Of a stretch of 64,000 nt of DNA, positions 21,488-50,386 are shown one piece after another. Location of the stretch: assembly GCA_012729055.1 (NCBI GenBank), contig JAAYDW010000045.1, forward strand, positions 1 to 64,000. Reading direction: 5' to 3'. Position numbers and translations under genes: made by a program. The stretch comes from Deltaproteobacteria bacterium. GTDB taxonomy: Bacteria; Desulfobacterota; Syntrophia; Syntrophales; Smithellaceae. The notes under the pieces were generated by a model. That model was not told the origin of the DNA. It made no database searches and saw only the letters and a list, made by a program, of their open reading frames with translations. Every line of letters begins with the position of its first letter. The first letter of the stretch is position 1.

Positions 21488-22600
21488 TCAGCATGCGGAC
21501 CTTTTTGCCCACTCCGGCAGCGTCAGCCGCAGTCGGTTCACTTCCCCTTCGCGCGCGTAATCGTGGCCCGACACCAGTTTGCCCACAAGCGTCATGGGCA
21601 GGTCGTCTTCCTCCACCGCTGCAAACGGGTTATACGGTTTTCCCGCGCTCGCGAGCAGAATTTCCACGGCGCCGCTTTCTTCCGAATAGCCCACCGTGAC
21701 CGTGATGTCCACATGGTCGCCCGAAGCGGGCAGGAGTTTGTTGACCACGAGCTCCTCGATCACCAGTTGAATGTTGTAGATCCGGTTTTCCGAGAGAAAG
21801 TGCTTGCGCCCGAAGGCCTCCACGCCCGCGTTCATGGCGTATAAATCGAAATTCCGCGATTGGACGGCATACGTGGCGGTTTTCACGCGGTGAATGAACG
21901 CGCGTGTTTTCTCCCGCTCCGGGCGAACGAAAATCCGGTCGGGCGGCCCCTCTTCATAAATCACCCCTTCGTCCATGTACAGGACGCGCGTGGATACATC
22001 CCGCGCAAATTTCATTTCGTGCGTGACGATCATCAGCGTCATGCCGTCGGCCGCGAGTTTCCGGATGACCGCCAGCACTTCGCTCACCATCGTCGGATCG
22101 AGCGCCGAGGTCGGCTCGTCAAAAAGGAGGATTTCCGGCGTCATGGCCAGAGCCCGGGCAATGGCCACCCTTTGCTTCTGCCCGCCCGAAAGTTCGTCGG
22201 GGTACGCGGTGGCTTTTTCCGCGAGCCCCACCATCGCCAGCAGCCGAAGCGCTTCGTCGTAAGCCTCCTGCCGCGGCATCTTCAGCAGGTCGACCGGTCC
22301 GAGCATGATGTTTTCAATCACCATCAGGTGCGAAAAAAGATTGAAGGACTGAAACACCATGCCCATGCGCCGGCGCAGCAGCGAAATGTCGGTTCCGCGG
22401 TCCAGAAGACGAATGCCGTCGATGATGATTTCGCCGCCGGTCGGCCTCTCCAGCAGATTCAAACAGCGCAGGAGCGTGCTTTTGCCGGTGCCGGACGGGC
22501 CGATGACGGAAATCACCTCGCCCTTCTCGATGCGGAGATTGACGTCCTTCAAAACGACCAGGTCGCCGAAGTGTTTGGCAAGATGGTTCACTTCAATCAT
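21488..22600 (-). CDS. Polar amino acid ABC ATPase fused to an RsbW-like HATPase domain
   Basis: 370 residues. Residues 1-242 are a complete GlnQ/HisP-type ATPase: Walker [37 protein letters not shown], and VTHEM. A second domain (about 255-370) follows, with [14 protein letters not shown], an anti-sigma/GHKL-like N-box, and a beta-strand-rich end ([20 protein letters not shown]), resembling RsbW-type serine-kinase ATPases. Normal family members end near residue 245. The ATG overlaps the stop of the upstream permease fusion gene. The extra domain might connect transport to a partner-switching regulator (inference). Confidence 0.8.
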
Positions 22601-32847: not shown

Positions 32848-32966
32848 GAAAAAGAAAATTCTGATCAGGAGCTTACAGGGCCTGACCAACTTTTTGGATT
32901 TGCTTTTAACATGAACTTCATCCGACGGGGGTTCGGATAAAACAATATATGGAAGGATATAATTTG

Positions 32967-35900
32967 ATGATAACCGTAAACATTGATGGAAAAGACTGCA
33001 TCACGGTCGACGGCGTGACGATCATCGACGCCGCGCGGTCGCACGGCATCGACATTCCCGCGCTTGGCTACGACCCGCGGGTCAGTCCGCCGAGCAATTT
33101 CGAAGCGGCCTTTGTGGAAGTGATTGAAAAAGGCAAGATCCTGTTTGTCTCCGCCACGTCCACAAAGGCTTCGGACGGCATGGTGATCCGGACGCAATCC
33201 GACGCGCTTACAAGCTACCGCCGGATTTATCTCCAGGCCCTTTTGCGCCACCACTGGGGCGACTGCGTGGCGCCCTGCGTGCTTCGCTGTCCGGCCGCCA
33301 TCGACATTCAGAAGTACATCTACCACGTCTCCTGCGGAAACTTTACGGAGGCGCTGGCCGTCATCAAGGACGCCAACCCGCTGCCCGCCGTCTGCGGGCG
33401 GGTCTGCCCGCATCCGTGCGAGACGGACTGCCGCCGCAACGCGATTGACGGCGCCGTTAATATCAACGGCATCAAGCGCTTCGTCGCCGACTGGGACGCC
33501 CTCCAGATGCAGCCCTACGCGCCTGTCTGCCTGCCGGATACGGGATATAAAATCGCCGTAATCGGCGCGGGTCCCGCCGGACTTTCCGCCGCCTGGTTCC
33601 TGCGCCGCATGGGGCATTCGGTCGCGATTTTCGAAATGCAGGAGAAGGCGGGCGGAATGCTGCGCTGGGGCATTCCCTACTACCGCCTGCCCGAGAAGGA
33701 CCTGGACCGGGAAATTGAAGCGATTCTGGATTTGGGCGTGGAAATTTTCTACAACAAAAAACTGGGGCGCGATTTCACGCTGGAATCCCTCAAAAGAGAC
33801 GGCTTTTCCGCCGTCTTCGTCGGCCTGGGCGCCCAGAAGGCGCAGGCCATCGGCGCCAGGGGCGAAGATGCGCCGGGCGTGATGTCCGGACTTGATTTCC
33901 TGGCGCGCCTGGCGCGCGGCGAAAGGCCGGCGCTCGGCCACCGGGTCATCGTCATCGGCGGCGGCAACACCGCCATGGATGCGGCCCGCAGCGCCGTCCG
34001 TCTGGGCGTGAAGGAAGTAATCGTCGCCTACCGCCGCACCCGCCAGGAAATGCCGGCCCAGCCCGTCGAAATCGACGAAGCCGTCGAGGAGGGAGTGAAC
34101 ATCCAGTTTCTCACCGCCCCCGTGTCGATTGCCGCCTCCGGCGGCGAACTCTCCCTGACCTGCGTCAAAATGGCGCTGGGCGAACCGGATGCCAGCGGAC
34201 GCCGCCGTCCCGTCGCCCAGCCCGGCTCGGAATTTACGCTTACGGCCACGACGATCATCTCCGCCATCGGCCAGACGGTGGACGGCTTGTGCCTGGGCGA
34301 CGCGATGCTGGTCGACAAGCGGGGCAACGTCGCGGTCGACCGGCAAACCCTCCAGAGCGCCCTGCCCTGGGTGTTCGCCGGCGGCGACTGCGTGACGGGA
34401 CCGGACATTGCGATTGCCGCGATCGGCGCCGGAAAACGCGCGGCGGCGGCGATCGACGAATTTGTACGGACCGGAAACGTGCAGACGGGCGAAACCCCTT
34501 ACACCTGCACGAAAGGCGCCTGGCGCGACCTGCCGTCCGACATGTTCCGGACGGTGGCGCGCGCCGAACGCCGGGAAGTTCCGGTACTGGCGCCCGATTT
34601 GCGCAAAACGACTTTTGACGAATCCTCCCGGACCTGGGATACGGACACCGCCATCGCGGAAGCCGACCGCTGCCTGGCGTGCGGCTGCACGGAGCGCTAC
34701 GACTGCTCGCTGCGCAATTACGCCAGCGCTTACGGCGTCACGCACGACGCGGCCGGTCCGCAGACACCCCTGCCCGTCGACGAAAACCACCCGATCATCA
34801 CCCGCGATCCCGGAAAATGCATTTTGTGCGGCCTGTGCCTGAAAGTCTGCCGCGAAATGGAGGGCGTCTCCGCGCTGAGTTTCTACGAAACCAACGATGT
34901 GCTCACCATCGGCCCCAACGACCACCGGCCGCTGGATCTGACCGTCTGCGTCTCCTGCGGCCACTGCGCCATGGTCTGTCCCACCGGCGCGCTCACGCTC
35001 AAGCCGGTTCTGCCGGACGTTTACCGCGCGCTCAAGGATCCCCAGCTCACCACCGTCGCCCAGATCGCGCCGGCGGTGCGCGCGGCCTTCGGCGAGCAGT
35101 ACGGCATTGCGCCGGCGGACGTTTTGCCGGTGCTGTCCGCCTGCCTCAAACAGCTCGGCTTCAATTTCGTCTTCGATACCTGCTGGGCGGCCGACCTCAC
35201 GATCATGGAGGAAGGCACGGAATTTCTGTCGCGCCTGGCCGAGGGCGGCGTGCTGCCGCAAATAACGTCCTGCTGCCCGGCCTGGATCAACTACTGTGAA
35301 AAGATGGCGCCGGATCTTCTGCCGCACCTGTCCTCCTGCAAATCGCCGCAGCAGATGTTCGGTGCGGTGATGAAGCGGTATTTCGCCAAAGAGCTCAAGG
35401 TGCGGCCGGAACTTTTGTACTTCGTTTCGATCATGCCCTGCAACGCCAAAAAATACGAGGCCATGCGCCCCGAATTCCGGACCGGCAACATTCCGGACGT
35501 TGACCGGGTCCTCACCACGTGGGACATCATGACCATGCTGGCGGAAAAGAGCATCGATCCGCGCACGATTCCGCCGGCGCCGGTGGATGCCTTTTTCGGG
35601 AAGGTGTCCGGCGCGGGCATCATCTTCGGCGCCAGCGGCGGCGTGGCCGAAGCGGCGCTCAGGCTCGCGGCCGAGCGCGTGACGGGCAAACGGATGGACA
35701 GCTTCAACTATGAAGGCGTCCGCGGCCTGCAGGGCGTGAAGGAAGCCGTCATTGCGCTGGGAGAAGTGAACGTGCGCCTTGCCGTCGTAAGCGGCCTGCA
35801 AAACGCGCAAAAGCTGATCGATCGGATGAGGGCCGGCGACGCCCCTTACGATCTCATCGAAGTCATGGCCTGCCCCGGCGGCTGCATCAACGGCTCGGGC

Positions 35901-36401
35901 AATCCCGCTCCGCTTTTGAAAAGCGATACGGGAGAACGCCTCGAGGTTCTGTACCGCCTCGACCAAGCCCAGCCGATCCGGACCAGCCAGGACAACCCGT
36001 CGGTTCAGGCCCTGTACACCAACTGGCTGGGCGAACCGGACAGCAAAACGTCGCATGCCGCGCTGCACACGACTTACAAACGTCGCTCCATGCGCGTGCA
36101 GGAGGTCAAAGAAGAAGTGGTCCGGGAAACGCCCGTGGTAGACGTCGGCGTCTGCATCGGCACCAACTGCTACGTGAAGGGCTCGTGGAAACTGCTCGAA
36201 GGCCTGGCCGCGGAAATCCGGCGGCGCGGGCTTACGGACCGGTTCCGCGTGAAGGCGCGCTTCTGCACCGGCCAGTGCGAAAGCGGGCCCAATGTGGCGG
36301 TGGGCAATAAAATCATCCCCGTGGAAAATGTGGAAGCGGCGGGCGCGTTCATCGACGCCCACCTGATGCCCGCGCTCTCCGGGGAAGAATCGGGAAAATG
36401 A
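32967..36401 (+). CDS. Multidomain [FeFe]-hydrogenase fused to GltD/NfnB-like flavoprotein
   Basis: 1144 residues from the ATG at 32967 (GGAAGGA nine bases upstream). Domains: an N-terminal plant-ferredoxin-like fold (1-75) in which all four cluster cysteines are replaced (IPALGYD, PPSNFEAAF, VSATS); a GltD-type cysteine-rich segment (about 98-155, CVAPCVLRC, CGRVCPHPCETDC); an FAD/NAD(P)H dehydrogenase (about 190-500, GAGPAGLSAAW, GGGNTAMDAAR); two [4Fe-4S] clusters (CILCGLCLKVC, CVSCGHCAMVC, about 618-675); an H-cluster domain (TSCCPAW about 767, MPCNAKKYE about 822, MACPGGC about 967); and a C-terminal thioredoxin-like [2Fe-2S] domain (CIGTNC, CTGQC). It probably links NAD(P)H to H2 in one chain. 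Cytoplasmic. Confidence 0.93.
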   Translation: MITVNIDGKDCITVDGVTIIDAARSHGIDIPALGYDPRVSPPSNFEAAFVEVIEKGKILFVSATSTKASDGMVIRTQSDALTSYRRIYLQALLRHHWGDCVAPCVLRCPAAIDIQKYIYHVSCGNFTEALAVIKDANPLPAVCGRVCPHPCETDCRRNAIDGAVNINGIKRFVADWDALQMQPYAPVCLPDTGYKIAVIGAGPAGLSAAWFLRRMGHSVAIFEMQEKAGGMLRWGIPYYRLPEKDLDREIEAILDLGVEIFYNKKLGRDFTLESLKRDGFSAVFVGLGAQKAQAIGARGEDAPGVMSGLDFLARLARGERPALGHRVIVIGGGNTAMDAARSAVRLGVKEVIVAYRRTRQEMPAQPVEIDEAVEEGVNIQFLTAPVSIAASGGELSLTCVKMALGEPDASGRRRPVAQPGSEFTLTATTIISAIGQTVDGLCLGDAMLVDKRGNVAVDRQTLQSALPWVFAGGDCVTGPDIAIAAIGAGKRAAAAIDEFVRTGNVQTGETPYTCTKGAWRDLPSDMFRTVARAERREVPVLAPDLRKTTFDESSRTWDTDTAIAEADRCLACGCTERYDCSLRNYASAYGVTHDAAGPQTPLPVDENHPIITRDPGKCILCGLCLKVCREMEGVSALSFYETNDVLTIGPNDHRPLDLTVCVSCGHCAMVCPTGALTLKPVLPDVYRALKDPQLTTVAQIAPAVRAAFGEQYGIAPADVLPVLSACLKQLGFNFVFDTCWAADLTIMEEGTEFLSRLAEGGVLPQITSCCPAWINYCEKMAPDLLPHLSSCKSPQQMFGAVMKRYFAKELKVRPELLYFVSIMPCNAKKYEAMRPEFRTGNIPDVDRVLTTWDIMTMLAEKSIDPRTIPPAPVDAFFGKVSGAGIIFGASGGVAEAALRLAAERVTGKRMDSFNYEGVRGLQGVKEAVIALGEVNVRLAVVSGLQNAQKLIDRMRAGDAPYDLIEVMACPGGCINGSGNPAPLLKSDTGERLEVLYRLDQAQPIRTSQDNPSVQALYTNWLGEPDSKTSHAALHTTYKRRSMRVQEVKEEVVRETPVVDVGVCIGTNCYVKGSWKLLEGLAAEIRRRGLTDRFRVKARFCTGQCESGPNVAVGNKIIPVENVEAAGAFIDAHLMPALSGEESGK

Positions 36402-36402
36402 C

Positions 36403-36711
36403 ATGTTACTGGTTACGATTTGCGTCGGCAGTTCGTGCAGTCTGCGCGGCTCCGACGAACTGGCGACGGAACTGTTCGAACTGATCAAGAAGGAAAAGCT
36501 TGAAGGGCTGGTCGATATCATCGGCGCCTTCTGCATGGATTCCTGCTCGAAGGGCGTCTCCGTGCGGGTGGGCGAACAGGAATTCAGCGGCATCCGTCCG
36601 GAGCAGGCGGAAACCTTCTTTTACCGGGAAGTCCTGCCCCGGGTGAAATCGCAGCTGCGGCCGGCAAGCGCCGATTCCGCGCCCGATGCCGGAAAGGAGG
36701 GTTCCTCATGA
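36403..36711 (+). CDS. Thioredoxin-like [2Fe-2S] ferredoxin
   Basis: 102 residues. The cysteine pattern CVGSSC and, after the helix, CMDSC matches the NuoE/HndA-type thioredoxin-like [2Fe-2S] fold. It lies between the fused hydrogenase and the sensory hydrogenase and overlaps the latter by 4 bp. It probably shuttles electrons within this group. The tail beyond residue 80 is low-complexity. Confidence 0.8.
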   Translation: MLLVTICVGSSCSLRGSDELATELFELIKKEKLEGLVDIIGAFCMDSCSKGVSVRVGEQEFSGIRPEQAETFFYREVLPRVKSQLRPASADSAPDAGKEGSS

Positions 36712-38426
36712 ACGCCCCGGCCATCATCACCAATCCCGCGCGCTGCCGCGACTGCTACCGCTGCGTGCGCCACTGCGGCGTCAAGGCCATCCGCGTCCAG
36801 GACGGCCAGGCGCAGGTAGTGCCGGAACTCTGCATCGTCTGCGGAACCTGCATCCGCGAATGTCCGCAAAACGCCAAGGACATGCCGAGCGCGACGCCGG
36901 AAATTCGACAGGCCATCCGGGACGGCCGCCGGGTCATCGCGTCCGTCGCTCCGTCCGCGCCCGCCTATTTCAACTTCACGCAGTTTGCCGAAATGGCGTC
37001 GGTGCTTAAAAAACTCGGATTTTTCGCCGCGGAAGAAACGGCCCGGGGCGCCGAAATCGTGGGACGCGCCCACCGCGACTACGTCGAGCGTCTGCCCGAA
37101 CGCCGCCCCGTCATCACCTCCTCCTGCCCGGTCATCGTGAACCTCATTGAAAAGTATTATCCCGACCTGATCAGCCATCTGGCGCCGATCGTTTCGCCGA
37201 TGATCGCACACGGACGCTGGCTTTCGAAAAAGTACGGACCGGACGCAATGATCGTTTTCATCGGCCCCTGCATCGCCAAGAAAATGGAAATCGCCGACGA
37301 GGCCGTTTCCGGCGTGGTTTCCGCGGCCATGACCTTCCGCGGTCTGGCCGACTGGCTGGCTGAAGAGCGGATCGTTATTCCGGAACTGCCCCAAACGGAA
37401 CCGCCGGCGCCGGCGGTGGACGCCAGGCTGTTTCCGATGGAAGGCGGCCTTCTCGCAACGGCGGGACTGAGCACGGACCTGCTGGCCTCCGAACTGGTCG
37501 TCGCCTCCGGACTGGAAATCTGCGGCAATATTCTGGACGATATCCGTGCAGGCCGCCTGAACGCCTCGCTCGTGGAACTGATGGCCTGCGCCGGCGGCTG
37601 CATCAACGGCCCGGCCATGGCAGACCTGGAAGGCGGCATTTACGCGGCCCGTCAGAAGATTCTCGAATACCTCCGCCGGCGGCCCGCCTATGACGCTTTG
37701 CCCCGCGAGGACTGGCCGGACCTGTCGCGCGGCTATACCGACAAACGGCAGCCTGTTCCCGAGTTCAGCGAAGAGCAGATTCAGGACGTCCTGCGCCGCG
37801 TGAACAAGTACACGCCGGAAGACGAGCTCAATTGCGGCGCCTGCGGCTATCCGAGCTGCCGGGAAAAAGCCATAGCCACGCTGCGGGGCATGGCGGAAGT
37901 CACCATGTGCATCCCCTACATGCGCAGCCGGTCCGAATCCCTGCGCCAGGTCGTCATGGACGTTTCCCCCAACTCCATCATCATCGTGGACAACCACCTG
38001 GTCATTCAGGACCTCTCCCCGTCGGCGGAGCGCCTGTTCGGCTGTTCGCGGGCGGACGTCAAGGGCCGGCACATCTCGCGGCTCATTCCGCTTTACGACG
38101 ATTTCGTGTCCGTGAGCGACACGGGCAAACCGGTGATCGGAAAAGTCCGGCGGATCAATGACCAGATCGTCGCGGAGCAAAACATCGTCCTGGTGGAAGG
38201 CCAGTCGCTTCTGGTGGCGATCATGCGCGACATTACCGAACGGGAAACGGAAAAGCAGAAATTCCACGAACTGCGGGCGCAGACCCTGGAGCAGACCCGC
38301 GAAGTGGTGCGCAAACAGATGCGGGTCGCGCACGAAATCGCGCACCTGCTCGGCGAGACCACGGCGGAAAGCAAGATGATCGTCTCCCACCTGGCGAAAA
38401 TCCTGGAAGAGGAAGAAGCGAAGTGA
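36708..38426 (+). CDS. Sensory [FeFe]-hydrogenase (group C, HydS-like) with Fe-S and PAS domains
   Basis: 572 residues. Two [4Fe-4S] motifs (CRDCYRCVRHC, CIVCGTCIREC) precede a compact H-cluster domain (about 70-300) with TSSCP, GPCIAKKME and MACAGGCINGP. The P1 segment TSSCP lacks the first cysteine of the TSCCP seen in the catalytic enzyme upstream, as in sensory forms. There follow a CGACGYPSC...C [4Fe-4S] motif (about 375-395), a PAS domain (about 412-508) and a C-terminal coiled helix ending in EEEEAK. There is no kinase domain. The ATG overlaps the previous stop and has a strong AAAGGAGG. It probably senses H2 or redox state and signals through the overlapping phosphatase gene. Confidence 0.88.
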   Translation: MNAPAIITNPARCRDCYRCVRHCGVKAIRVQDGQAQVVPELCIVCGTCIRECPQNAKDMPSATPEIRQAIRDGRRVIASVAPSAPAYFNFTQFAEMASVLKKLGFFAAEETARGAEIVGRAHRDYVERLPERRPVITSSCPVIVNLIEKYYPDLISHLAPIVSPMIAHGRWLSKKYGPDAMIVFIGPCIAKKMEIADEAVSGVVSAAMTFRGLADWLAEERIVIPELPQTEPPAPAVDARLFPMEGGLLATAGLSTDLLASELVVASGLEICGNILDDIRAGRLNASLVELMACAGGCINGPAMADLEGGIYAARQKILEYLRRRPAYDALPREDWPDLSRGYTDKRQPVPEFSEEQIQDVLRRVNKYTPEDELNCGACGYPSCREKAIATLRGMAEVTMCIPYMRSRSESLRQVVMDVSPNSIIIVDNHLVIQDLSPSAERLFGCSRADVKGRHISRLIPLYDDFVSVSDTGKPVIGKVRRINDQIVAEQNIVLVEGQSLLVAIMRDITERETEKQKFHELRAQTLEQTREVVRKQMRVAHEIAHLLGETTAESKMIVSHLAKILEEEEAK

Positions 38427-39598
38427 GACAACTCGTCGAATGCACCTGGATCAGCCTCAATAAAGCGGGCGAGGAGCTCTGCGGCGACTCGGTCATCATC
38501 CGCACCACGCCGGATTCCTTTGTGGCGGTGCTGTCCGACGGCCTGGGCAGCGGCGTCAAGGCCAGCATCCTGTCGTCGCTCACCGCGGAAATCGCCGCGC
38601 GGATGTTCGAGGCCGACGGCACCGTGGAAGACGTCATGCAAACGCTGATCGACACGCTGCCGGAATGCTCGGTGCGCAAACTGGCGTATGCGACGTTCGC
38701 CGTCCTGATCGTCTACGGCGGACGCGACGCCCACCTGGTCCTGTTCGATTCTCCGCCGCTCATTCTGATCCGCCGCAATACGATCGTCACCCTGCCGCTG
38801 GAAGAGCGCAAGGTCAAGGACCGGATCGTCCGCGACGCACACTTCGCTCTGGAAGAAAACGACTACATGGTCCTGATCAGCGACGGCTACACGCACGCGG
38901 GGCTGGGCGGCATCTACCGGATGGGCTGGGGCTGGAAGAATGTCGCCACCGCCGTTCAGCGCTTCGTCCAGACGGGCGTGGATACCGTGAAGCTCACCGA
39001 AGCCCTGTCGAAAACCTGCATGAAGCTCTACAACGACGAACCGGGCGACGACGCCACCGTCATCTGCATGAAAGTGCGCCCCGCCGTTTCCGTCTGCCTG
39101 CTCACCGGCCCGCCCGCCAACAAGGAAATGGACGAATTCGCCGTCAAACGGCTGATGGCGGCCGAAGGCGACAAAATCATCTGCGGCGGCAGCACCGCGC
39201 AAATGTCGGCCCGCGTACTTGGCGAAAAACTCGAGGTGGAATGGGTTCCCCCGTGGAAGCGGACCGGCAAGGAACCCAAAAAGAAGGGATCGCCGCCCAC
39301 TGCAACGATCCGGGGCATCGACCTCGTCACGGAGGGCATTCTCACCATCGGCCAGGCGCTGGAAATCATCCGGGAAGCGAAAACCATCCACGATCTGCCC
39401 CGGGACAACGACGCGGCCACCCGCCTCGCCCACTATCTCCTGGCGGCGGACGACATTCATCTGATTGTGGGCACGGCCATCAATCCCAACCAGGTCGCGG
39501 ATCTCATCCGCGGCGAACCGATGCGGATGCTGTACGTTAGGGAACTGGTTGCGGCGCTTAAGGCCAGAAACAAGATCGTCAAGGTGGAGAGGGTGTAA
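38423..39598 (+). CDS. SpoIIE-type PP2C serine phosphatase
   Basis: 391 residues from a GTG overlapping the upstream stop (GTGA). Metal-binding aspartates are in CGDSVI, SDGLGSG, ISDGYTHAG and GDDATV, so the catalytic domain (1-215) looks intact. Residues 225-391 form an additional domain (LTGPPANKEMDEFAVKRLMAAEGDKIICGGST) of unclear family. SpoIIE phosphatases dephosphorylate antagonists in partner-switching systems. Translational coupling to the sensory hydrogenase suggests the two act together. Confidence 0.88.
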   Translation: MRQLVECTWISLNKAGEELCGDSVIIRTTPDSFVAVLSDGLGSGVKASILSSLTAEIAARMFEADGTVEDVMQTLIDTLPECSVRKLAYATFAVLIVYGGRDAHLVLFDSPPLILIRRNTIVTLPLEERKVKDRIVRDAHFALEENDYMVLISDGYTHAGLGGIYRMGWGWKNVATAVQRFVQTGVDTVKLTEALSKTCMKLYNDEPGDDATVICMKVRPAVSVCLLTGPPANKEMDEFAVKRLMAAEGDKIICGGSTAQMSARVLGEKLEVEWVPPWKRTGKEPKKKGSPPTATIRGIDLVTEGILTIGQALEIIREAKTIHDLPRDNDAATRLAHYLLAADDIHLIVGTAINPNQVADLIRGEPMRMLYVRELVAALKARNKIVKVERV

Positions 39599-39600
39599 AA

Positions 39601-39673
39601 AAGGTTCAAGGTGCAAGGTGCAAGGTGCAAGGACTGAATCTTCCTGTTATTACCTTGTTCCTTGTTCCTTATT
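39601..39673. repeat. Seven-base tandem repeats forming an imperfect hairpin
   Basis: Four copies of AAGGTKC (AAGGTTC then AAGGTGC three times, 39601-39628) and, 20 bp further, three copies of CCTTGTT/CCTTATT (39653-39673). The two blocks are about 80 percent complementary over 18 bp, so they could form a long stem after the phosphatase gene. The second block overlaps the end of the minus-strand HATPase gene. Confidence 0.7.
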
Positions 39674-40184
39674 CTTCTTCATGCAGAATCATCTTCGCTT
39701 CCGGCGCCTGGAAGGTCTGTTTGCGCGGGAGTGTGATGGACACGGTGGTGCCCGTGGGACCCTGCGACGGATCGGCGTTGGAGACGACGGCAATGTCCCC
39801 TGAATGGCCTTTCACGGTCGCATAAGCTTGCGGCAGGCTGAGCCCCGTCCCGTCCCCCACCGGTTTTGTCGTAAAAAAAGGCGTAAACAAGAGCGGAAGA
39901 TTTTCTCCGGAAATTCCTTGCCCTTCATCCCGCACCTGCAGCGTGACGCACGTTTCATCCCCCGCTTGCGAGATGGTAAGACGCCCTCCTCCGGGCATGG
40001 CCTCCGCGGCGTTGCGCTCCAGATCGGTCAGCACCGACGCCATCCGTTCGTGATCAATCCACGCCTTATCATCCTCCAGCGCGGATTCCACGATCACCTC
40101 GACGTTGTCCGGAAGGTTTGCGGCCCGGAGACTGTCCGCGATGATTTTGGCAATGCGGGTTTCCCGAAATCGAAGTCCGTGCAC
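39669..40184 (-). CDS. Stand-alone histidine-kinase ATPase (HATPase_c) domain
   Basis: 171 residues from a GTG at 40184 (AGGGG upstream). N-box ERNAAEAMP, G1 DEGQGI, F-box LFTPFFTTK and G2 GTGLSLPQAYATVKGHSG are all intact, but the phospho-accepting histidine helix and any sensor are absent. It is the only minus-strand gene in the 32.9-51.6 kb island. It is either the end of a broken kinase or a free ATPase subunit. Confidence 0.65.
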   Translation of the reverse strand: MHGLRFRETRIAKIIADSLRAANLPDNVEVIVESALEDDKAWIDHERMASVLTDLERNAAEAMPGGGRLTISQAGDETCVTLQVRDEGQGISGENLPLLFTPFFTTKPVGDGTGLSLPQAYATVKGHSGDIAVVSNADPSQGPTGTTVSITLPRKQTFQAPEAKMILHEEE

Positions 40185-40479
40185 TGGTTTTCCCCTGTCG
40201 AATGCCGGACGCCCGCCGCAAAACCGATTTTTGCCGGCCGTCTGCGTCCTTGGTTTCGGCGAGTATCGGGGACGGCCCGATAATTGTCAACCGCAAAATG
40301 CGCCGCGCTCCGCCGCGCTCGGTATTTCATCATTTTATCTTATTGACTTTACGTTCACGGCCATGATAGAAGTAGCGAAAAAATATACAAGTACAGACAA
40401 GAACAGAAGAGCAAAACAAACAACAACGCAGATCTTCCCGAACGCCGCAGGGCGCTCGGACCAAAATAAGGAGCCACCT
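40185..40479. other. Gap between minus-strand HATPase and first DRTGG gene
   Basis: 295 bp with no gene recognised on either strand. TTGACT at 40343 followed 16 bp later by GATAGA is at best a weak promoter for the DRTGG operon. Confidence 0.3.
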
Positions 40480-40854
40480 TTGAAACTTTCCGATGTAAAA
40501 GAAATCCTGGATGCGGAAGTCATTGTCGGAGAAGACAATCTTGACCTGGATGTCAAAACCGCCTTTGGCGCAGATTTGATGAGCGACGTTCTCGCATTTG
40601 CCAAAGCCGGCAGTCTTCTGCTGACCGGTTTGACCAATACCCAGGTGATCCGCACCGCCAACGTGCTGGACATTGCCGCCATCATTCTGGTGCGCGGCAA
40701 GAAACCGTCGACTGAAACCATCGCGTTGGCCAGGGAATTGAAAATCCCCATCCTCACGACCAAATACATTCTATTTGAAACAGCGGGTCGCCTTTACACC
40801 AAAGGCATCGTCGGCTGTCTGCAAAAAGTTGATAATACCAGTGGCCGAAACTAA
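40480..40854 (+). CDS. DRTGG-domain protein 1
   Basis: 124 residues from a TTG at 40480, chosen because AAGGAG lies six bases upstream and the DRTGG homology begins here. The sequence KLSDVKEILDAEVIVGEDNLD...FGADLMSDVLAF matches DRTGG domains found near hydrogenase clusters and in phosphotransacetylase-like proteins; the literal DRTGG motif is not kept. Function of the family is unproven. It overlaps the RsbW-like ATPase gene by 14 bp, implying coupled production. Confidence 0.7.
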   Translation: MKLSDVKEILDAEVIVGEDNLDLDVKTAFGADLMSDVLAFAKAGSLLLTGLTNTQVIRTANVLDIAAIILVRGKKPSTETIALARELKIPILTTKYILFETAGRLYTKGIVGCLQKVDNTSGRN

Positions 40855-41278
40855 CCAAAACCTGTATTCTGGAACTTTCAATATCGAAGGCGGCAACTTC
40901 AACTCGGCGGGAATCGTCTCCACCGGCATCAAATCCACCCTCAAAAAACTGGGGATTCCCAGCGATCTCGTCCGCAAGGCCGCCATCGTTTCCTACGAAG
41001 CGGAAATCAACGTCGTTTCCTACGCCAAAAAAGGCGTGATGACGCTGACGGTTCATCCCGGCGTCGTCTGCATCGAGGTCACGGACGAAGGCCCGGGCAT
41101 CCCGAACATCGATTTGGCCATGCAGGAGGGTTACTCCACCGCCGACCAGCGCATCCGGGAAATGGGTTTCGGCGCCGGCATGGGGCTGTGCAACATCAGG
41201 AATTATTCCGACGCATTTCAGATCGAGTCGGAAGTCGGCAAGGGTACGCGCCTGAAGATGACGATTACAACGCCATGA
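40841..41278 (+). CDS. RsbW-like anti-sigma factor/serine kinase ATPase
   Basis: 145 residues from a GTG at 40841 (alternative in-frame starts lie inside the DRTGG gene). GHKL ATPase features: VRKAAIVSYEAEINVVSYA (N-box), VTDEGPGIPN (G1), and GFGAGMGLCNIRNYSD (G2). This matches the single-domain RsbW/SpoIIAB class that phosphorylates STAS antagonists and binds sigma factors. No STAS or sigma gene is next to it; instead DRTGG genes flank it on both sides. Confidence 0.8.
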   Translation: MAETNQNLYSGTFNIEGGNFNSAGIVSTGIKSTLKKLGIPSDLVRKAAIVSYEAEINVVSYAKKGVMTLTVHPGVVCIEVTDEGPGIPNIDLAMQEGYSTADQRIREMGFGAGMGLCNIRNYSDAFQIESEVGKGTRLKMTITTP

Positions 41279-41296
41279 TTTTTATAAAAGGGTTCG

Positions 41297-41641
41297 ATGA
41301 TGAAAATTGAAGAAATTGTTCAAGCGCTGGGACTGGAGGTCAAATGCGCCAAAGATTGCCTGGACAGAGAGGTCACGGGAGGCTACACGGGAGATCTTTT
41401 AAGCGACGTGATGGGCAATTCCAAGGCCGGCTACATCTGGATCACCCGTCAGGTGCACCAGAATATCGTCGCCGTCGCCAGCCTTAAGGAACACTCGGCG
41501 ATCATCCTGATCAATTCTTCCCAGCCGACGGCCGAAACCATGGATAAAGCCGAAGCGGAGAAAATTCCGATCATGGTGTCCGATCTGCCCGCTTTTGAGA
41601 TATCGGGCAAGATCTACAACCTGTTGACAGCGAACAGCTGA
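41297..41641 (+). CDS. DRTGG-domain protein 2
   Basis: 114 residues (or 113 from the second ATG). MKIEEIVQALGLEVKCAKDCLDREVTGGYTGDLLSDVMG is homologous in pattern to the first DRTGG protein, and the VTGGYTGDLLSDV segment is closer to the family motif. It lies 18 bp after the RsbW-like gene. Its role may be as target or antagonist of that ATPase (inference). Confidence 0.72.
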   Translation: MMKIEEIVQALGLEVKCAKDCLDREVTGGYTGDLLSDVMGNSKAGYIWITRQVHQNIVAVASLKEHSAIILINSSQPTAETMDKAEAEKIPIMVSDLPAFEISGKIYNLLTANS

Positions 41642-41705
41642 CACCCGCAGACCGTTTCCCACTCCCTCCGGCGCTGGTATCCTTCTTTTCTCACGGGTAA
41701 AACCG

Positions 41706-42443
41706 ATGTTGAAAGTTTATCACTGCGACCTTCACATTCACACCTGCCTGTCGCCCTGCGCCGAACTGGACATGCATCCGCAGGCTCTGGTCGACCGGGC
41801 CCTTGAAAAGAACCTTGACATCATCGCCATCAGCGACCACAACGCCTCCGCCAATGTCCCCTATGTCCAGGCGGCCGCCGCCGGAAAAAACATCCGCATT
41901 GTTCCGGCGATGGAAATCACGACCCGCGAGGAAGTGCACCTCCTGGCGCTTCTGGAAAACCTTTTTGCCCTCCGGGAACTCCAGACCCTGATCGACCGGC
42001 ACCTGTTCGGCGAAAACGACGAGGACCGTTTCGGCGTCCAGGCCGTCGTCAACGAGCGCGGGGAAGTGGAGGAATTAAACAACCAACTCCTCATCGGCGC
42101 AACCGATCTGTCGATCGACGAGATCGTGGACACCATTCACCGCCTGAAGGGCCTGGCCATTCCCGCGCACATCGACCGGGAAAGTTTCAGCGTGCTGGGC
42201 CAGCTCGGTTTCATCGACGACAACGCGCACTTTGACGCTCTCGAAATTTCCGGACGCACCGGCCTTGCCAAAGGCAGGCTCCAATATCCGGAACTCAGAC
42301 ATTATCCTTTTGTAACGTCCTCCGACGCCCACTTCGTCAGAGATATTGGAACTGCAACGACCCCTCTGCTTCTGGAGGCCCCGACCTTTGCGGAAATTAA
42401 GATGGCGCTTGCCGGTCAAAACGGCCGCCGGATCGTGGAGTGA
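41706..42443 (+). CDS. PHP-domain metal-dependent hydrolase
   Basis: 245 residues. Metal-binding motifs DLHIHTCLSPC, AISDHNAS, EITTREEVHLLAL and SSDAHFVRD are intact, giving a trinuclear-site phosphoesterase of the PHP/YciV-like type. The substrate is not evident from the sequence; a nucleotide or protein phosphate are both possible. PHP genes recur beside Hnd-type hydrogenase operons, so a regulatory role is plausible. Confidence 0.8.
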   Translation: MLKVYHCDLHIHTCLSPCAELDMHPQALVDRALEKNLDIIAISDHNASANVPYVQAAAAGKNIRIVPAMEITTREEVHLLALLENLFALRELQTLIDRHLFGENDEDRFGVQAVVNERGEVEELNNQLLIGATDLSIDEIVDTIHRLKGLAIPAHIDRESFSVLGQLGFIDDNAHFDALEISGRTGLAKGRLQYPELRHYPFVTSSDAHFVRDIGTATTPLLLEAPTFAEIKMALAGQNGRRIVE

Positions 42444-42445
42444 TC

Positions 42446-42994
42446 ATGCTCACCCTGGCCGATCATATACTGGACATCACGGAAAACTCGGTTCGCGCCG
42501 GCGCAAAACTCATTGAAATCAGCATTGAGGAAGACACGGCCCGGGACCGGCTCGTCATTGAAATAAGGGACGACGGCCACGGAATGAACAAGGAAGTGAT
42601 TCAAAAGGTTCTTGATCCGTTTTTCACCACCAAAACAGTCCGGCGCGTCGGATTGGGGCTGCCGCTGCTTAAAGACGCCGCCGAAAGATCGCAAGGCGAT
42701 TTTTTCCTGGAATCGCAACAAAATTCCGGAACCACAGTAAGAGCCAGCTTCGGCCTCAGGCATCTGGACCGGCAGCCGCTCGGCGCCATAATCAGCACCG
42801 TCATTATTCTGATAATTTCGAATTCTCAGGTTGATTTTTTTTATAAACATAGGCATAATGACCGCCGGTTTGAATTGGATACACGTGAAATTCGCAAGGA
42901 AATCGATGATGTACCAATTAACCATCCTGAGATAATCAAATATATCAGGGCTGCTATGGAAGAAGGATTGCGCGAGATCGAATCTGAAGCTTAG
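42446..42994 (+). CDS. Second stand-alone HATPase protein of the hydrogenase island
   Basis: 182 residues from the ATG at 42446 (GGAG five bases before it). LADHILDITENSVRAGA is the N-box, RDDGHGMNKE G1, LDPFFTTK the F-box and VGLGLPLLKDAAE G2. There is no histidine-phosphotransfer helix. A C-terminal extension of about 65 residues (after GAIIST) has no recognised family. It overlaps the PHP gene end region and precedes hndA. Confidence 0.75.
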   Translation: MLTLADHILDITENSVRAGAKLIEISIEEDTARDRLVIEIRDDGHGMNKEVIQKVLDPFFTTKTVRRVGLGLPLLKDAAERSQGDFFLESQQNSGTTVRASFGLRHLDRQPLGAIISTVIILIISNSQVDFFYKHRHNDRRFELDTREIRKEIDDVPINHPEIIKYIRAAMEEGLREIESEA

Positions 42995-43022
42995 CGCGCC
43001 CGGAAGATTGAGGAGGAATGGA

Positions 43023-43517
43023 ATGAAAGCCGAAGACACTGAGTTGTTGAAAGAATTCACACCTGAACAAGTCGCCAAACTGGACAGCATCATCGAAAAA
43101 CACAAGGGAAAGGCGGGTGGATTGATTCCCGTCCTGGAGGAAGCCCAGGTCTGCCTTGAATATCTGCCCTTGCCCGTACAGAAGAGAATCGCTCAAGGAT
43201 TGAATTTGCCGTTGAGCCGCGTTTACGGGGTGGTCACGTTTTATTCGTTCTTCACCATGACCCCGCGCGGCAAGCACACCGTCCGCGTCTGCCTAGGAAC
43301 CGCCTGCTATGTGCGCGGCGGCAAGGCCATTGCGGAGGCGCTGGAAAAACAGTTCAACATTCGAGAAGGTGAAACCACGGAGGACCGGATGTTTACCCTG
43401 GAGTCCGTCCGTTGTCTGGGCGCCTGCGGCCTCGGGCCGGTTGTGGTTGTCGATGAAGACGTTCACGGCCGCGTGAAGCCCGCAAAGCTCAAGGAGATCT
43501 TAAGTCAATACCATTAA
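43023..43517 (+). CDS. hndA: Hydrogenase subunit HndA / NuoE-like [2Fe-2S] protein
   Basis: 164 residues from the ATG at 43023 (AGGAGG six bases upstream). An N-terminal helical bundle leads to a thioredoxin-like [2Fe-2S] domain with CLGTACYVRGG and CLGACGLGP ligands. It feeds or receives electrons at the NuoF-type flavin subunit of NAD(P)-linked or bifurcating [FeFe]-hydrogenases. First gene of the hndABCD set. Confidence 0.92.
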   Translation: MKAEDTELLKEFTPEQVAKLDSIIEKHKGKAGGLIPVLEEAQVCLEYLPLPVQKRIAQGLNLPLSRVYGVVTFYSFFTMTPRGKHTVRVCLGTACYVRGGKAIAEALEKQFNIREGETTEDRMFTLESVRCLGACGLGPVVVVDEDVHGRVKPAKLKEILSQYH

Positions 43518-43553: not shown

Positions 43554-43937
43554 ATGGCGAAATTAACGATTGATGATTTGAAAAAAATCAAAGAGAAAGT
43601 CCACAAGGAAATGTCCCTGCGCGACGGCGACCGCCGCGTCAGAATCACGGTTCATATGGGAACCTGCGGCATCGCTTCCGGCGCCAAGGAAGTCATGGAT
43701 TCGCTGCTGGAAGAAATCGAAGCCGCCAAGGTCAACGATGTGGTCGTCACCACCTCGGGTTGCATGGGATTGTGCAGCCGCGAGCCGCTGGTCACCGTGG
43801 AAGTCATAAACCAGGAACCCATCAAATACGAATACGTCAATCCCAACAAGATGCGGCAGATTTTCAAAAGACACGTTCTGGCCGGTGAAGTACAAACGCC
43901 CTTTGTCCTGGCGAAAGGTTCTGAAGTGATTAAATAA
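43554..43937 (+). CDS. hndB: Hydrogenase subunit HndB-like thioredoxin-fold [2Fe-2S] protein
   Basis: 127 residues: MGTCGIASGAKEV and SGCMGLCSREP hold the conserved cysteines of the HndB group. In HndABCD enzymes this small subunit sits near the flavoprotein; its exact role is not settled. GGAGGA precedes the ATG. Confidence 0.88.
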   Translation: MAKLTIDDLKKIKEKVHKEMSLRDGDRRVRITVHMGTCGIASGAKEVMDSLLEEIEAAKVNDVVVTTSGCMGLCSREPLVTVEVINQEPIKYEYVNPNKMRQIFKRHVLAGEVQTPFVLAKGSEVIK

Positions 43938-44001
43938 ACACATGATCAATCATCCGGGACGCGCTCTCCGGGACATGATTGCTAAGGAGGATATGAAATC
44001 A

Positions 44002-47000
44002 ATGAAAGTATTTCGTTCACACATACTCATTTGCGGTGGTACGGGCTGCCAGGCTTCCGGCAGCCTTGGTGTAAAAAATGCCCTTCTTGAAGAGATTGTC
44101 AAAAGAAAACTGGCCGACGAAATCAAAGTGGTTGAAACCGGCTGCAACGGATTCTGTGCGCTGGGCCCCATCATGGTGATTTACCCGGAAGGCATTATCT
44201 ACATCAGCCTCAAACCGGCCGATATCCCCGAACTGGTCGAAGAACATCTGGTCAAGGGCCGCATCGTTGAAAAACTGCTCTACCGCGAACCGGGCACAGA
44301 CAAGGCCATTCCCACGATGCAGGACATCCCTTTCTTCGCCCACCAGGAACTGCGCGTTTTGAAGAACCGCGGAATGATCGATCCGGAGAAAATAGAAGAA
44401 TACATCGCCCGCGACGGTTATGCCGGCATGGCCAAGGCGCTCACCGAAATGGCGCCGGAACAGATTGTCCAGGAAATGCTGGATTCCGGCCTGCGCGGCC
44501 GCGGCGGCGCGGGATTCCCCACCGGCTTGAAATGGAAATTCGCCGCCCAGTCCAAGGGTGACATTAAATACGTTTTGTGCAACGCCGACGAAGGCGATCC
44601 TGGCGCGTTCATGGACCGCTCGGTTCTGGAAGCCGATCCCCACGCCGTTCTGGAAGGCATGGTCATCGCGGCCAAAGCCATCGGTTCGCACCACGGCTAC
44701 ATCTACTGCCGCGCGGAATATCCGCTGGCCATCCACCGCCTCAACGTCGCCATCGGCCAGGCCAAGGAAGCCGGCCTCCTGGGCAAGGACATCCTCGGCA
44801 CGGGCTTCGACTTCGACCTGGAAATTTACCAGGGCGCGGGCGCGTTCGTCTGCGGCGAGGAAACGGCCCTCATGACTTCGATTGAAGGCAAGCGCGGCAT
44901 GCCCCGTCCCCGTCCGCCCTTCCCCGCCGTGGCGGGCCTGTGGCAGAAACCCAGCATCCTCAACAACGTCGAAACGCTGGCCAATGTGGGCCAGATCATC
45001 CTGCGCGGCGCCAAGTGGCACGCGTCGGTCGGCACGGAGAAAAGCAAGGGCACGAAAGTGTTCGCCCTCACCGGCGACGTCAACAACGTGGGTCTGGTGG
45101 AAGTGCCCATGGGCACCACGCTGGGCACCATCGTCTATGACATCGGCGGCGGCATTCCCAAAGGCAAGAAGTTTAAAGCCGCGCAGCTCGGCGGCCCGTC
45201 CGGCGGCTGTATTCCGGTTCAGCACCTCAACGCCCCGGTCGATTACGAGAAAGTCGCGGAACTGGGCGCCATCATGGGGTCCGGCGGTCTCATCGTCATG
45301 AACGAAGACAAGTGCGCAGTCGACATGGCGCGCTTCTTCATGGACTTCTGCCAGGACGAGTCCTGCGGCAAGTGCACCCCCTGCCGTGAAGGCACGAAGC
45401 GCATGCTGGATATTTTAACGGGCATCACCAAAGGCAAGGGCAAGGCCGGCGACATCGAGCTGCTCGAGGAAATGGCCGGCGTCATTAAGAACGCCGCCCT
45501 GTGCGGCCTGGGCCAGACGGCTCCCAATCCCGTTTTGAGCACCCTCAGATATTTCCGGAAAGAATACGAAGAGCACATCTTCGAGCATCGCTGCCGCGCC
45601 ACCGTCTGCTCGGCGATGTACAAATCTCCCTGCCAGCACACCTGTCCGATTGAAATGGACATTCCGTCCTACATCGCGCTGGTGCGCGAAGGCCGGTTTG
45701 AAGACGCCTATAAGATCCTGCTTCAGACCAATCCCTTCCCGTCCGTCTGCGGACGCGTCTGCGACCACAAATGCCAGACCAAGTGCCGCCGCGGCAACAT
45801 GGACGAACCGCTGGCCATCAAGTTCCTGAAGCGCTTCATCACGGACAATGCCCCGCGTCCGAAAACGGATCCGGTCGCGGTCACCCGCAAGGAAAAGATC
45901 GCCGTGATCGGCGCAGGCCCCGCGGGACTTACCGCCGCGCGCGATCTCGCGCTGCGCGGCTACAAGGTGACCGTGTTTGAAGAACTCTCCTATGCGGGCG
46001 GCATGCTCCGCTGGGGTATTCCCGCGTACCGTCTGCCCCGCAACATCCTGCAGGGCGAAATCGACGACATCACCGCGCTGGGCGTGGAGATCCGCCTCAA
46101 CACCCGCGTCGGACGCGATATTTCGTTTGCACAGATCGAGAAGGATTTTGACTACTTTTATCTTGCCACCGGCGCGCACAAGAGCCAGAAGATGCGCGTT
46201 CCCGGCGAAGATCTGGGCAACGTATTCGGCGGCGTTGAATTCCTGCGCGACTTCAACGACAACGAAGAAAAGTGGCTCAAAGGCGAGAAAACGCTGGGCA
46301 AGAAAGTCGCCGTCATCGGCGGCGGCAACTCGGCCATCGACGCGGCCCGCGTCGCGCTCAGGCTCGGCTCCGACGTCACCATCCTGTATCGCCGTTTGAG
46401 ACAGGACATGCCGGCGGCCGAAGAGGAAATCAAGGCGGCGGAAGAAGAAGGCATCAAGATCGAATACCTGGTCGCCCCGCTGAAAATCGACGGCGCGAAA
46501 GGCAAGGTCAAATCCATTACCTGCCAGCGAATGAAGCTGGGCGATTTCGACGCGAGCGGCCGCAAGAAACCCGTTCCGATTGAAGGATCCGAATTCACTC
46601 TGAACGTGGACGCGATCGTCGCGGCCATCGGCCAGGTGCCGGATATGAGCTTCATCGACAAGAAGATCGACGTCGAAGTGAACAAGTGGGATTGCTACAC
46701 GGTCGGGAAGGGATTCAAGTCCCGCACGACAAATCCCCGCTACTTCGCCGGCGGCGACGCCGAAACCGGTCCCGACACCGTCATCGCGGCCGTCGGCGCC
46801 GGCCATCAGGCGGCCGATGACATCGACGCAGCCATCCGCGCGGCCAACAACGAACCGGCCTACGTGAAGCCGGCGCGCGAAGAAATCCTCGTTCCGCTGG
46901 TGATCGACGAAGAAACGGCCGAGGCGCCGCAGATGCCGATGCCGGAAATGCACGCCGCCACGCGCAAGATGAGCTTTGCGGAAGTGGAACTGGGCTTCAC

Positions 47001-47058
47001 CCGCGAAGACGCCATCAAGGAAGCCTGCCGCTGTCTGCGTTGCGACGCCGCCGTTTAA
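44002..47058 (+). CDS. hndC: HndC/NuoF-type flavoprotein fused to a GltD-like FAD/NAD(P) module
   Basis: 1018 residues from the ATG at 44002 (AGGAGG at 43985-43990); in-frame ATGs at 43942 and 43993 are less well placed. A thioredoxin-like [2Fe-2S] domain (CGGTGC, CNGFCALGP) is followed by the NuoF core (about 95-500): GRGGAGFPTGLKW for FMN, CNADEGDPGAF for NAD, and ESCGKCTPCREG for the N3 cluster. Where HndC normally ends in a 2x[4Fe-4S] ferredoxin, this protein has a GltD/NfnB-type domain (about 530-1018; CQHTC, CGRVCDHKCQTKC, GAGPAGLTAAR, GGGNSAIDAAR). It thus carries two pyridine-nucleotide sites. Confidence 0.92.
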   Translation: MKVFRSHILICGGTGCQASGSLGVKNALLEEIVKRKLADEIKVVETGCNGFCALGPIMVIYPEGIIYISLKPADIPELVEEHLVKGRIVEKLLYREPGTDKAIPTMQDIPFFAHQELRVLKNRGMIDPEKIEEYIARDGYAGMAKALTEMAPEQIVQEMLDSGLRGRGGAGFPTGLKWKFAAQSKGDIKYVLCNADEGDPGAFMDRSVLEADPHAVLEGMVIAAKAIGSHHGYIYCRAEYPLAIHRLNVAIGQAKEAGLLGKDILGTGFDFDLEIYQGAGAFVCGEETALMTSIEGKRGMPRPRPPFPAVAGLWQKPSILNNVETLANVGQIILRGAKWHASVGTEKSKGTKVFALTGDVNNVGLVEVPMGTTLGTIVYDIGGGIPKGKKFKAAQLGGPSGGCIPVQHLNAPVDYEKVAELGAIMGSGGLIVMNEDKCAVDMARFFMDFCQDESCGKCTPCREGTKRMLDILTGITKGKGKAGDIELLEEMAGVIKNAALCGLGQTAPNPVLSTLRYFRKEYEEHIFEHRCRATVCSAMYKSPCQHTCPIEMDIPSYIALVREGRFEDAYKILLQTNPFPSVCGRVCDHKCQTKCRRGNMDEPLAIKFLKRFITDNAPRPKTDPVAVTRKEKIAVIGAGPAGLTAARDLALRGYKVTVFEELSYAGGMLRWGIPAYRLPRNILQGEIDDITALGVEIRLNTRVGRDISFAQIEKDFDYFYLATGAHKSQKMRVPGEDLGNVFGGVEFLRDFNDNEEKWLKGEKTLGKKVAVIGGGNSAIDAARVALRLGSDVTILYRRLRQDMPAAEEEIKAAEEEGIKIEYLVAPLKIDGAKGKVKSITCQRMKLGDFDASGRKKPVPIEGSEFTLNVDAIVAAIGQVPDMSFIDKKIDVEVNKWDCYTVGKGFKSRTTNPRYFAGGDAETGPDTVIAAVGAGHQAADDIDAAIRAANNEPAYVKPAREEILVPLVIDEETAEAPQMPMPEMHAATRKMSFAEVELGFTREDAIKEACRCLRCDAAV

Positions 47059-49003: not shown

Positions 49004-50386
49004 ATGACCGATTGCAGAACCGAAAAGGATTTTTTAGGCGCGCTGGACGTCCCGCGCGACGCGTACTGGGGCATCCACACCGAGCGCGCGCGGCGCAATT
49101 TCCGCATCAGTTCGCTTACCGTTCATCCGGCGCTCATCCGGGCGCTTGCGCGGGTAAAACAGGCCTGCTGCCTGGCCAACGCCGCAACGGGAAGCCTGTC
49201 CCCGGAGAAAGCCGCGGCCATCGGCAAAGCCTGCGATGAAATCGCGGCGGGAGAGTTCGCCGATCAGTTTCCGCTCGACGCCCTGCAGGGCGGCGCGGGA
49301 ACGTCCACCAACATGAACCTCAACGAAGTCCTCGCCAACCGCGCCATCGAACTTCTGGGCGGCGAAAAAGGCGACTACGCGATCGTCTCTCCGCTCGGCG
49401 ACGTGAACCGGCATCAATCCACCAACGACGTCTATCCCACCGCCGTCAAAATCGCCGCCATCCGGGGCCTGCGCGATCTCGCGTCGGTCGCGGCGGCGCT
49501 GCAGGGCGCCTTCCAGGAAAAAGAAAAGGAATTCGCCCCGATCGTTAAAATGGGGCGCACGGAACTGCAGGACGCCGTACCGATCACACTGGGCGCCGAA
49601 TTTTCCGCCTTTGCCGAGGCGATCGGGCGCGATCGCTGGAGGACGTTCAAATGCGAAGAGCGCCTGCGCGTGGTGAATCTCGGCGGCACGGCCGTCGGCA
49701 CGGGCCTTACCGCGCCCCGCGACTACATTTTTCTGGTTATCGAAAAATTGCGGGAAATCACCGGCCTGGGACTTTCCCGCGGCGAAAATCTGATGGGCGA
49801 AACGGCCAACGCCGATGTGTTCGTGGAAGTCTCCGGCATCCTCAAAGCGCACGCCGTCAATCTCATCAAGATCGCGGGCGACCTCCGGCAGATGAATTTC
49901 CTGGGTGAAATCCATCTCCCCCGGATGCAGACCGGCTCTTCCATCATGCCCGGCAAGGTCAACCCTGTCGGGATGGAAGCCGCGATCCAGGCGGGCGTCA
50001 AAGTCATCGCCAACGACGCCATCGTCGCCGAGGCGGCATCGCGCGGCACGTTCCAGATCAGCGAGTTTCTGCCGCTTCTGGCCGTCGCGCTGCTGGAATC
50101 CCTGGAGCTCCTCGCCGCCATTGACAAACTCCTCACGGATCAGGTAAAAAATCTGATAGCCGATCCGCAGCGGTGCGGGGAATTCGTCGACAAAAGCCCC
50201 TCGATCATCACCGCTCTGCTCCCCGCCGTGGGCTATGAGCAGGCGGCGGCGCTGGCGGCGGAATTCGCGGCCGGGCCGGAAAAAAGCATGCGGACGTTTC
50301 TCATCCAAAAACTGGGCGCCGATCCGGTGGAGCGCTACCTCTCGCCTTCCGCCCTGACCGCGCTGGGGTATAAAAACCGTGGATAA
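49004..50386 (+). CDS. aspA: Aspartate ammonia-lyase / fumarase family lyase
   Basis: 460 residues from the ATG at 49004. The superfamily signature GSSIMPGKVNP is present, with TSTNMNLNEV, NRHQSTNDVYPTA and MGRTELQDAVP. Overall pattern is AspA-like; fumarase activity cannot be excluded. It overlaps hydF by 8 bp. aspA-type genes commonly travel with hyd maturation genes, and a role in supplying ammonia for the H-cluster bridging amine is possible (inference). Confidence 0.85.
   Translation: MTDCRTEKDFLGALDVPRDAYWGIHTERARRNFRISSLTVHPALIRALARVKQACCLANAATGSLSPEKAAAIGKACDEIAAGEFADQFPLDALQGGAGTSTNMNLNEVLANRAIELLGGEKGDYAIVSPLGDVNRHQSTNDVYPTAVKIAAIRGLRDLASVAAALQGAFQEKEKEFAPIVKMGRTELQDAVPITLGAEFSAFAEAIGRDRWRTFKCEERLRVVNLGGTAVGTGLTAPRDYIFLVIEKLREITGLGLSRGENLMGETANADVFVEVSGILKAHAVNLIKIAGDLRQMNFLGEIHLPRMQTGSSIMPGKVNPVGMEAAIQAGVKVIANDAIVAEAASRGTFQISEFLPLLAVALLESLELLAAIDKLLTDQVKNLIADPQRCGEFVDKSPSIITALLPAVGYEQAAALAAEFAAGPEKSMRTFLIQKLGADPVERYLSPSALTALGYKNRG

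Follow-up and report, generated by a model that had tools for sequence, protein, structure and literature searches.

A stretch of 64,000 nucleotides from a Smithellaceae genome (contig JAAYDW010000045.1, positions 1 to 64,000; the whole stretch is here called the window) carries, between positions 32949 and 48928, two adjacent gene sets that combine [FeFe] hydrogenases with putative regulatory proteins. In unit A, a sensory-type hydrogenase, HydS, is paired with a SpoIIE-type phosphatase. In unit B, a SpoIIAB/RsbW-like ATPase is found with two DRTGG proteins, a predicted PHP phosphoesterase and the Hnd genes. The genome, of 3.36 Mb, is close to Smithella-type Syntrophales, and the nearest named relative of its RsbW-like gene (72% identical) is carried by Smithella sp. 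PtaU1.Bin162. A first-pass annotation had described most of these genes as a single partner-switching module, with the SpoIIE phosphatase and the RsbW-like ATPase as opposing enzymes. The genes it named are present, by Pfam or profile matches and, for DRTGG2, by alignment and motif, but the stretch is two separately inherited gene sets side by side and not one switch. The features are as follows.

32949-36401, plus strand: unit A, fused [FeFe] hydrogenase of 1150 amino acids; Pfam Fe_hyd_lg_C and SSU domains and a glutamate-synthase-like NAD(P)H oxidoreductase domain
36403-36711, plus strand: unit A, thioredoxin-like 2Fe-2S protein (Fd2S) of 102 amino acids; sub-threshold Pfam match, place before HydS kept across phyla
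36708-38426, plus strand: unit A, HydS, PAS-bearing sensory [FeFe] hydrogenase; Fe_hyd_lg_C (1e-51), PF04060 FeS and PAS
38423-39598, plus strand: unit A, SpoIIE-type PP2C phosphatase; SpoIIE profile 6.6e-15, conserved C-terminal domain without assigned fold
39669-40184, minus strand: HKm, stand-alone histidine-kinase-type catalytic (CA) domain of 171 amino acids without phosphoacceptor domain (3.3e-17)
40480-40854, plus strand: unit B, DRTGG1; Pfam DRTGG 1e-12, above cut-off; model with a predicted local distance difference test score (pLDDT) of 94
40841-41278, plus strand: unit B, SpoIIAB/RsbW-like ATPase; full N, G1 and G2 boxes, TIGR01925 6.8e-14
41297-41641, plus strand: unit B, DRTGG2; alignment with DRTGG1 and shared motif, below the Pfam cut-off
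41706-42443, plus strand: unit B, predicted PHP phosphoesterase; conserved His, Asp and Glu positions
42440-42994, plus strand: unit B, histidine-kinase-type ATPase (HATPase) with a C-terminal extension and without phosphoacceptor domain; profile match
43008-43517, plus strand: unit B, HndA
43554-43937, plus strand: unit B, HndB
43942-47058, plus strand: unit B, HndC, a NuoF-GltD-like fusion of 1038 amino acids
47165-48928, plus strand: unit B, HndD, [FeFe] hydrogenase

The fused hydrogenase and the 2Fe-2S protein are grouped with HydS and SpoIIE because their collinear order is recurrent. HKm, which is absent from the first-pass annotation, sits between SpoIIE and DRTGG1; as it lies on the minus strand between the units, the whole set is not one collinear operon.

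Separate inheritance of the two units

The distribution of the units was surveyed in 119 genomes of the window's order, the window genome included. The unit B RsbW gene is found in 93 (a few of these, G002, G061 and G077, by weak or partial matches), HydS-linked SpoIIE in 16 and an [FeFe] hydrogenase domain of any kind in 43. All 16 genomes with SpoIIE also hold a hydrogenase and the RsbW module. The module itself is present without HydS-linked SpoIIE in 77 of its 93 genomes and without any [FeFe] hydrogenase in 57. Presence of RsbW does not follow that of hydrogenase (Fisher p 0.36), and presence of SpoIIE does (Fisher p 1e-8); the genomes are kin, so that these values are descriptive and do not represent independent trials. 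Many of the genomes are fragmentary and a single absence says little, but the counts are large. As the RsbW module persists without this SpoIIE or a hydrogenase in so many genomes, SpoIIE is unlikely to be its opposing enzyme. The 57 genomes also speak against a hydrogenase as the obligate target; with the single module, the hydrogenase or its transcription had been put forward as a possible target.

Each unit also occurs beside a remnant of the other, in 2 of the 16 order genomes with unit A. At locus L174 an intact unit B adjoins a decayed SpoIIE stub (7855-8073), and at L171 an intact unit A adjoins a unit B stripped of DRTGG1 and most of RsbW (decayed RsbW, 5959-6072). The units are apart in a further 7 of the 16 (G007, G012, G015, G020, G022, G053 and G072).

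The same separation is seen in other phyla. Among 50 genomes picked for having RsbW and then checked for the unit A SpoIIE, 19 hold it and 31 do not. Of 19 SpoIIE contexts fetched from other phyla, 18 have usable flanks, and DRTGG or RsbW genes are found in none of these 18.

Unit A and the adjoining HKm gene

The genes of unit A form a tight series. The end of hydS overlaps the start of spoIIE, as the first-pass annotation had it; in the window the overlap is 4 nucleotides long (GTGA), and one of this length is seen in several lineages. Fd2S, HydS and SpoIIE are collinear in all loci of the order that span this stretch, beside unit B or away from it (L160-L163, L165 and L167). The 1150-amino-acid hydrogenase precedes them in 16 of 17 unit A loci of the order, the window included; the exception is L059, where it is encoded elsewhere in the genome. 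The Fd2S-HydS-SpoIIE core is also found in Bacillota and Bacteroidota, with other hydrogenases.

HydS retains the four H-cluster cysteines, with TSSCP instead of TSCCP. The AlphaFold model of the SpoIIE protein (pLDDT 87) has as its best fold match Bacillus subtilis SpoIIE (5ucg; Z 23.5, residues 1-223), with a root-mean-square deviation of 2.8 over 214 residues. The PP2C metal-binding residues D39, D154, D209 and D210 are kept in at least 90% of 27 SpoIIE sequences. Residues 223-391 constitute a C-terminal domain that displays the strongly conserved motifs TGPP, GIDLVTEGILT and VGTAIN and belongs to no Pfam family; it had no fold match of its own in the match lists of the whole model, the domain never having been searched alone.

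By its domains and gene pair, unit A matches the published [FeFe] hydrogenase class C3. HydDB lists pairs of an H-cluster/PAS sensor and a phosphatase under this group as 'phosphatase-linked (putative)' (PMC5037454). In Ruminococcus albus, HydS is paired with a phosphatase in a gene cluster whose expression drops in co-culture with an H2 consumer (PMC6776011). Unit A shares with C3 and the R. albus cluster an H-cluster domain with PAS, an adjacent Ser/Thr phosphatase gene and nearby hydrogenase genes. The HydS of Thermotoga maritima is also close to that of unit A (PMC10055695), the phosphatase being stated for C3 and R. albus. Unit A differs from all three in the fused 1150-amino-acid hydrogenase upstream, in a His for Gln in the C-terminal helix of HydS and in the convergent HKm.

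The last two differences raise a further possibility. All HydS sequences of the order that were examined have the His in this helix, VAHEIAHLLGE (near 38330-38423); in other phyla, HydS proteins linked to SpoIIE have Gln instead. Most unit A loci of the order have HKm next to them, and HKm resembles the catalytic domain of a complete histidine kinase to which HydS is fused at L195. In this lineage HydS and HKm might thus work together as a split histidine kinase, with a phosphoacceptor-like His contributed by HydS. This is a rather doubtful proposition, however, as the pattern of His and HKm probably goes back to a single evolutionary event, the unit A of L165 has no HKm beside it and a response regulator was not found adjacent.

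Unit B across phyla

Unit B is widespread and goes with NADH-linked enzymes in many anaerobes. Its conservation was followed in 80 loci from many phyla, which are the best profile matches and not a random sample; counts for each gene are from loci with sufficient flank. The usual order is DRTGG1, RsbW, a group D-like hydrogenase, DRTGG2, PHP, HATPase and the Hnd genes. The RsbW gene directly follows DRTGG1 in 73 of 75 loci; DRTGG2 is present in 64 of 73, PHP in 55 of 62, HndC in 43 of 55 and the group D-like hydrogenase, which is PAS-less, in 55 of 73. The last gene is mostly missing from the cluster in the window's order (present in 5 of 38), and the window copy is without it. As judged by Pfam for the L059 and L084 proteins, it has two Fer4 domains, the H-domain and a C-terminal FeS domain but no PAS.

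Several parts of unit B are found fused. DRTGG1 is fused with RsbW in two independent genomes (L109 and L214), the group D hydrogenase with DRTGG2 (L224 and L229) and PHP with the HATPase (L088). A CBS-CBS-RsbW fusion occurs within the window's phylum at several loci (L215-L223 in part) and in the second copy of the window genome, CBS being assigned by a Pfam match for the window genome's own copy and by sequence likeness at the other loci. The fusions are taken from assembled sequence, and any single one might be an assembly error; the DRTGG rows of the natural DRTGG1-RsbW fusion align at 10-18% identity, and partial sequences looked misaligned. These natural fusions, together with an invariant Ser-Asp in the DRTGG proteins, tie the parts of unit B to one another. 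The pairing of DRTGG and RsbW-like genes, also part of the first-pass annotation, is thus genuine.

A DRTGG gene followed by a CBS-CBS-RsbW-like ATPase fusion, with no Hnd genes near, lies downstream of RsbW on the window's contig, at a distance of about 38 kb (C21:78.3-79.6 kb; L037:8263-9564). Another gene, at 21488-22600 on the minus strand, encodes an ABC transporter ATPase to whose C-terminus an RsbW-like HATPase_c_2 domain is fused; its neighbour encodes a 1024-amino-acid protein that combines a permease domain with three SBP_bac_3 stretches.

In the window, the DRTGG1 gene overlaps that of the RsbW-like ATPase. The latter scores 51.9 bits against a TIGR01925 equivalog cut-off of 135, and by sequence it is predicted to be a SpoIIAB relative rather than an anti-sigma F. 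E53, N57, D82, G84 and G86, of the N (E..N), G1 (DxGxG) and G2 boxes, are kept in at least 97% of 150 sequences. DRTGG2 scores 19.2 bits against the Pfam cut-off of 25.2. It shares with DRTGG1 an Asp-x-x-Ser-Asp motif, of which the Ser-Asp is invariant in 41 sequences. The DRTGG1 model resembles 2ioj (template modelling score 0.79) and 3l2b and places the invariant Ser35 at the start of a helix, a predicted position that recalls, by analogy, the Ser at which STAS proteins are phosphorylated. Sequence matches of DRTGG to designed 'Pizza' repeats in the PDB were dismissed, as at about 6 bits per repeat they are an artefact of summing repeats. The PHP protein keeps the His, Asp and Glu positions that its metal site would be expected to have, with conservation of at least 97%.

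Unit B resembles known systems in part. With SpoIIAB/RsbW and the Rsb system the window shares the ATPase fold, the full N, G1 and G2 boxes and a SpoIIE-type PP2C phosphatase nearby. It differs in that the partner is DRTGG and not STAS, no cognate sigma factor gene is adjacent and the phosphatase is separately inherited; the locus holds no STAS antagonist, and phosphatase and kinase are not kept together (16 versus 93 of the 119 genomes). The CBS-DRTGG region of the Clostridium perfringens pyrophosphatase (3l2b, 3l31) has the DRTGG fold and combines CBS with DRTGG, as do relatives of unit B. Unlike unit B, it regulates an enzyme within one chain and has no HATPase partner. The PAS-less hydrogenase is likened, by domain order alone, to the group D (M2e) TamHydS of Thermoanaerobacter mathranii (PMC8163306, PMC13104023). 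The available portions of these accounts do not discuss a DRTGG/PHP/Hnd neighbourhood, and the window's unit B has no group D gene. In the open-access literature no account was found of a unit B cluster, whether as DRTGG together with [FeFe] hydrogenase or as PHP together with bifurcating hydrogenase, and priority is therefore not claimed.

HndC relatives persist even in those genomes of the order that lack [FeFe] hydrogenases altogether. Elsewhere in the window, the hydrogenase maturase gene hydF is at 50379-51626. An Rfam scan of the window gave zero matches.

Proposed regulatory roles and competing explanations

The two gene sets are probably two regulatory units side by side: unit A a sensor of H2 with a phosphatase as output, and unit B an ATPase/DRTGG switch for HndABC. 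The biochemistry that we infer is as follows. HydS would sense H2 at the H-cluster, and the signal would travel through its PAS domain and C-terminal helix to the SpoIIE-type Ser/Thr phosphatase. The target of the phosphatase would be encoded at another locus and may be a STAS protein; by acting on it the phosphatase would control H2 genes. The RsbW-like ATPase of unit B, with DRTGG1 as its partner, would be a switch or kinase under the influence of adenine nucleotides and, in clusters that include the group D hydrogenase, of H2 or the redox state as well. The circuit, which would control NADH-linked HndABC, would be completed by DRTGG2, the PHP phosphoesterase and the second ATPase, with PHP the better-conserved candidate for the reversing enzyme. 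The proximity of the units would reflect a shared part in H2/NADH metabolism and not mutual need.

The claim that no STAS gene is present holds at the locus. It does not hold genome-wide, since other contigs of the genome carry six STAS matches. One of these belongs to a STAS/RsbW pair at C37:31261-32002, which is no more than a candidate for the target of the unit A phosphatase. Similarly, no sigma factor gene is adjacent, although the window does include rpoN (sigma-54), at 12562-14034 on the minus strand and more than 20 kb from the cluster; a cognate sigma factor or other partner may be encoded at an unlinked locus.

Several observations weigh against two independent circuits. The units are adjacent in 7 of the 16 order genomes with unit A (G000, G002, G006, G008, G031, G034 and G068). 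In an order-level sample of 149 Bacteroidales genomes, taken around genome G405, SpoIIE is found in 52, RsbW in 48 and both in 38 (odds ratio 24, p 7e-15, the genomes being kin and not independent); in these 38 the units are at most 1.5 kb apart in 4 and within about 10 kb in 9. G405 has an additional copy, L131, with the units adjacent. Given this co-occurrence and adjacency, the units may be functionally linked. Moreover, the evidence for nucleotide binding by unit B, a predicted property, consists of the CBS fusions and the fold. The juxtaposition of A and B exceeds chance and arose in more than one lineage, yet it is optional, and neither unit requires the other. The expected co-occurrence of a sensory-type hydrogenase with the DRTGG and RsbW-like genes is thus found, both as the group D gene of unit B and as unit A in Bacteroidales; constant adjacency of A and B is not.

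The recurrent adjacency in the window's order and in Bacteroidales, the strong co-occurrence in the latter, the DRTGG1-RsbW fusions and the invariant Ser at a helix start can all be accommodated by the single module of the first-pass annotation, in which the RsbW-like kinase phosphorylates DRTGG as a STAS stand-in and a HydS-controlled SpoIIE dephosphorylates it. That model is nevertheless improbable, as most genomes with the RsbW module lack this SpoIIE, in the order as in other phyla, the L174 stub lies beside an intact module and the 18 SpoIIE contexts of other phyla are without DRTGG and RsbW. The annotation was mostly right in its observation and partly right in its mechanism. A phosphatase belonging to unit B itself might instead be PHP, opposing the RsbW-like kinase on the conserved DRTGG Ser or on a nucleotide ligand of DRTGG. 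Certain PHP proteins (CpsB/YwqE) are protein phosphatases, and PHP is co-conserved with RsbW (55 of 62 loci and 28 of 35), with its His, Asp and Glu positions kept. The nearest curated models are, however, the TrlF family, the anti-phage protein Ppl, CehA/McbA, RNase RNM and nucleotide phosphatases, and this role for PHP is possible but not the likely one.

Of similar standing is an explanation outside signalling, whereby unit B serves the assembly or the conformational control of the HndABC flavoprotein complex, with GHKL ATPases and with DRTGG proteins as chaperone or allosteric subunits. It is consistent with the presence of unit B beside HndABC even in the genomes that have no [FeFe] hydrogenase and with the fact that no regulator gene was recognised beside unit B. 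On the other hand, the SpoIIAB-type boxes, the CBS fusions and the group D sensory-type hydrogenase in the cluster suggest signalling. In its most specific and more speculative form, the signalling role would make unit B a STAS-free phospho-switch that is widespread among anaerobes: an RsbW-type kinase would act on the invariant DRTGG Ser, PHP would reverse it, and adenine nucleotides and the group D H-cluster sensor would set the state, controlling an NADH-linked hydrogenase/diaphorase.

The distinction between units A and B sets apart two regulatory circuits that would otherwise be treated as one, and unit B is the more interesting object of the two. On the open question of how putative H2-sensing [FeFe] hydrogenases transmit a signal, unit B, which is conserved in many phyla, and its fusions name candidate partners. 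If true, the STAS-free phospho-switch would explain how group D sensory hydrogenases relay their signal.

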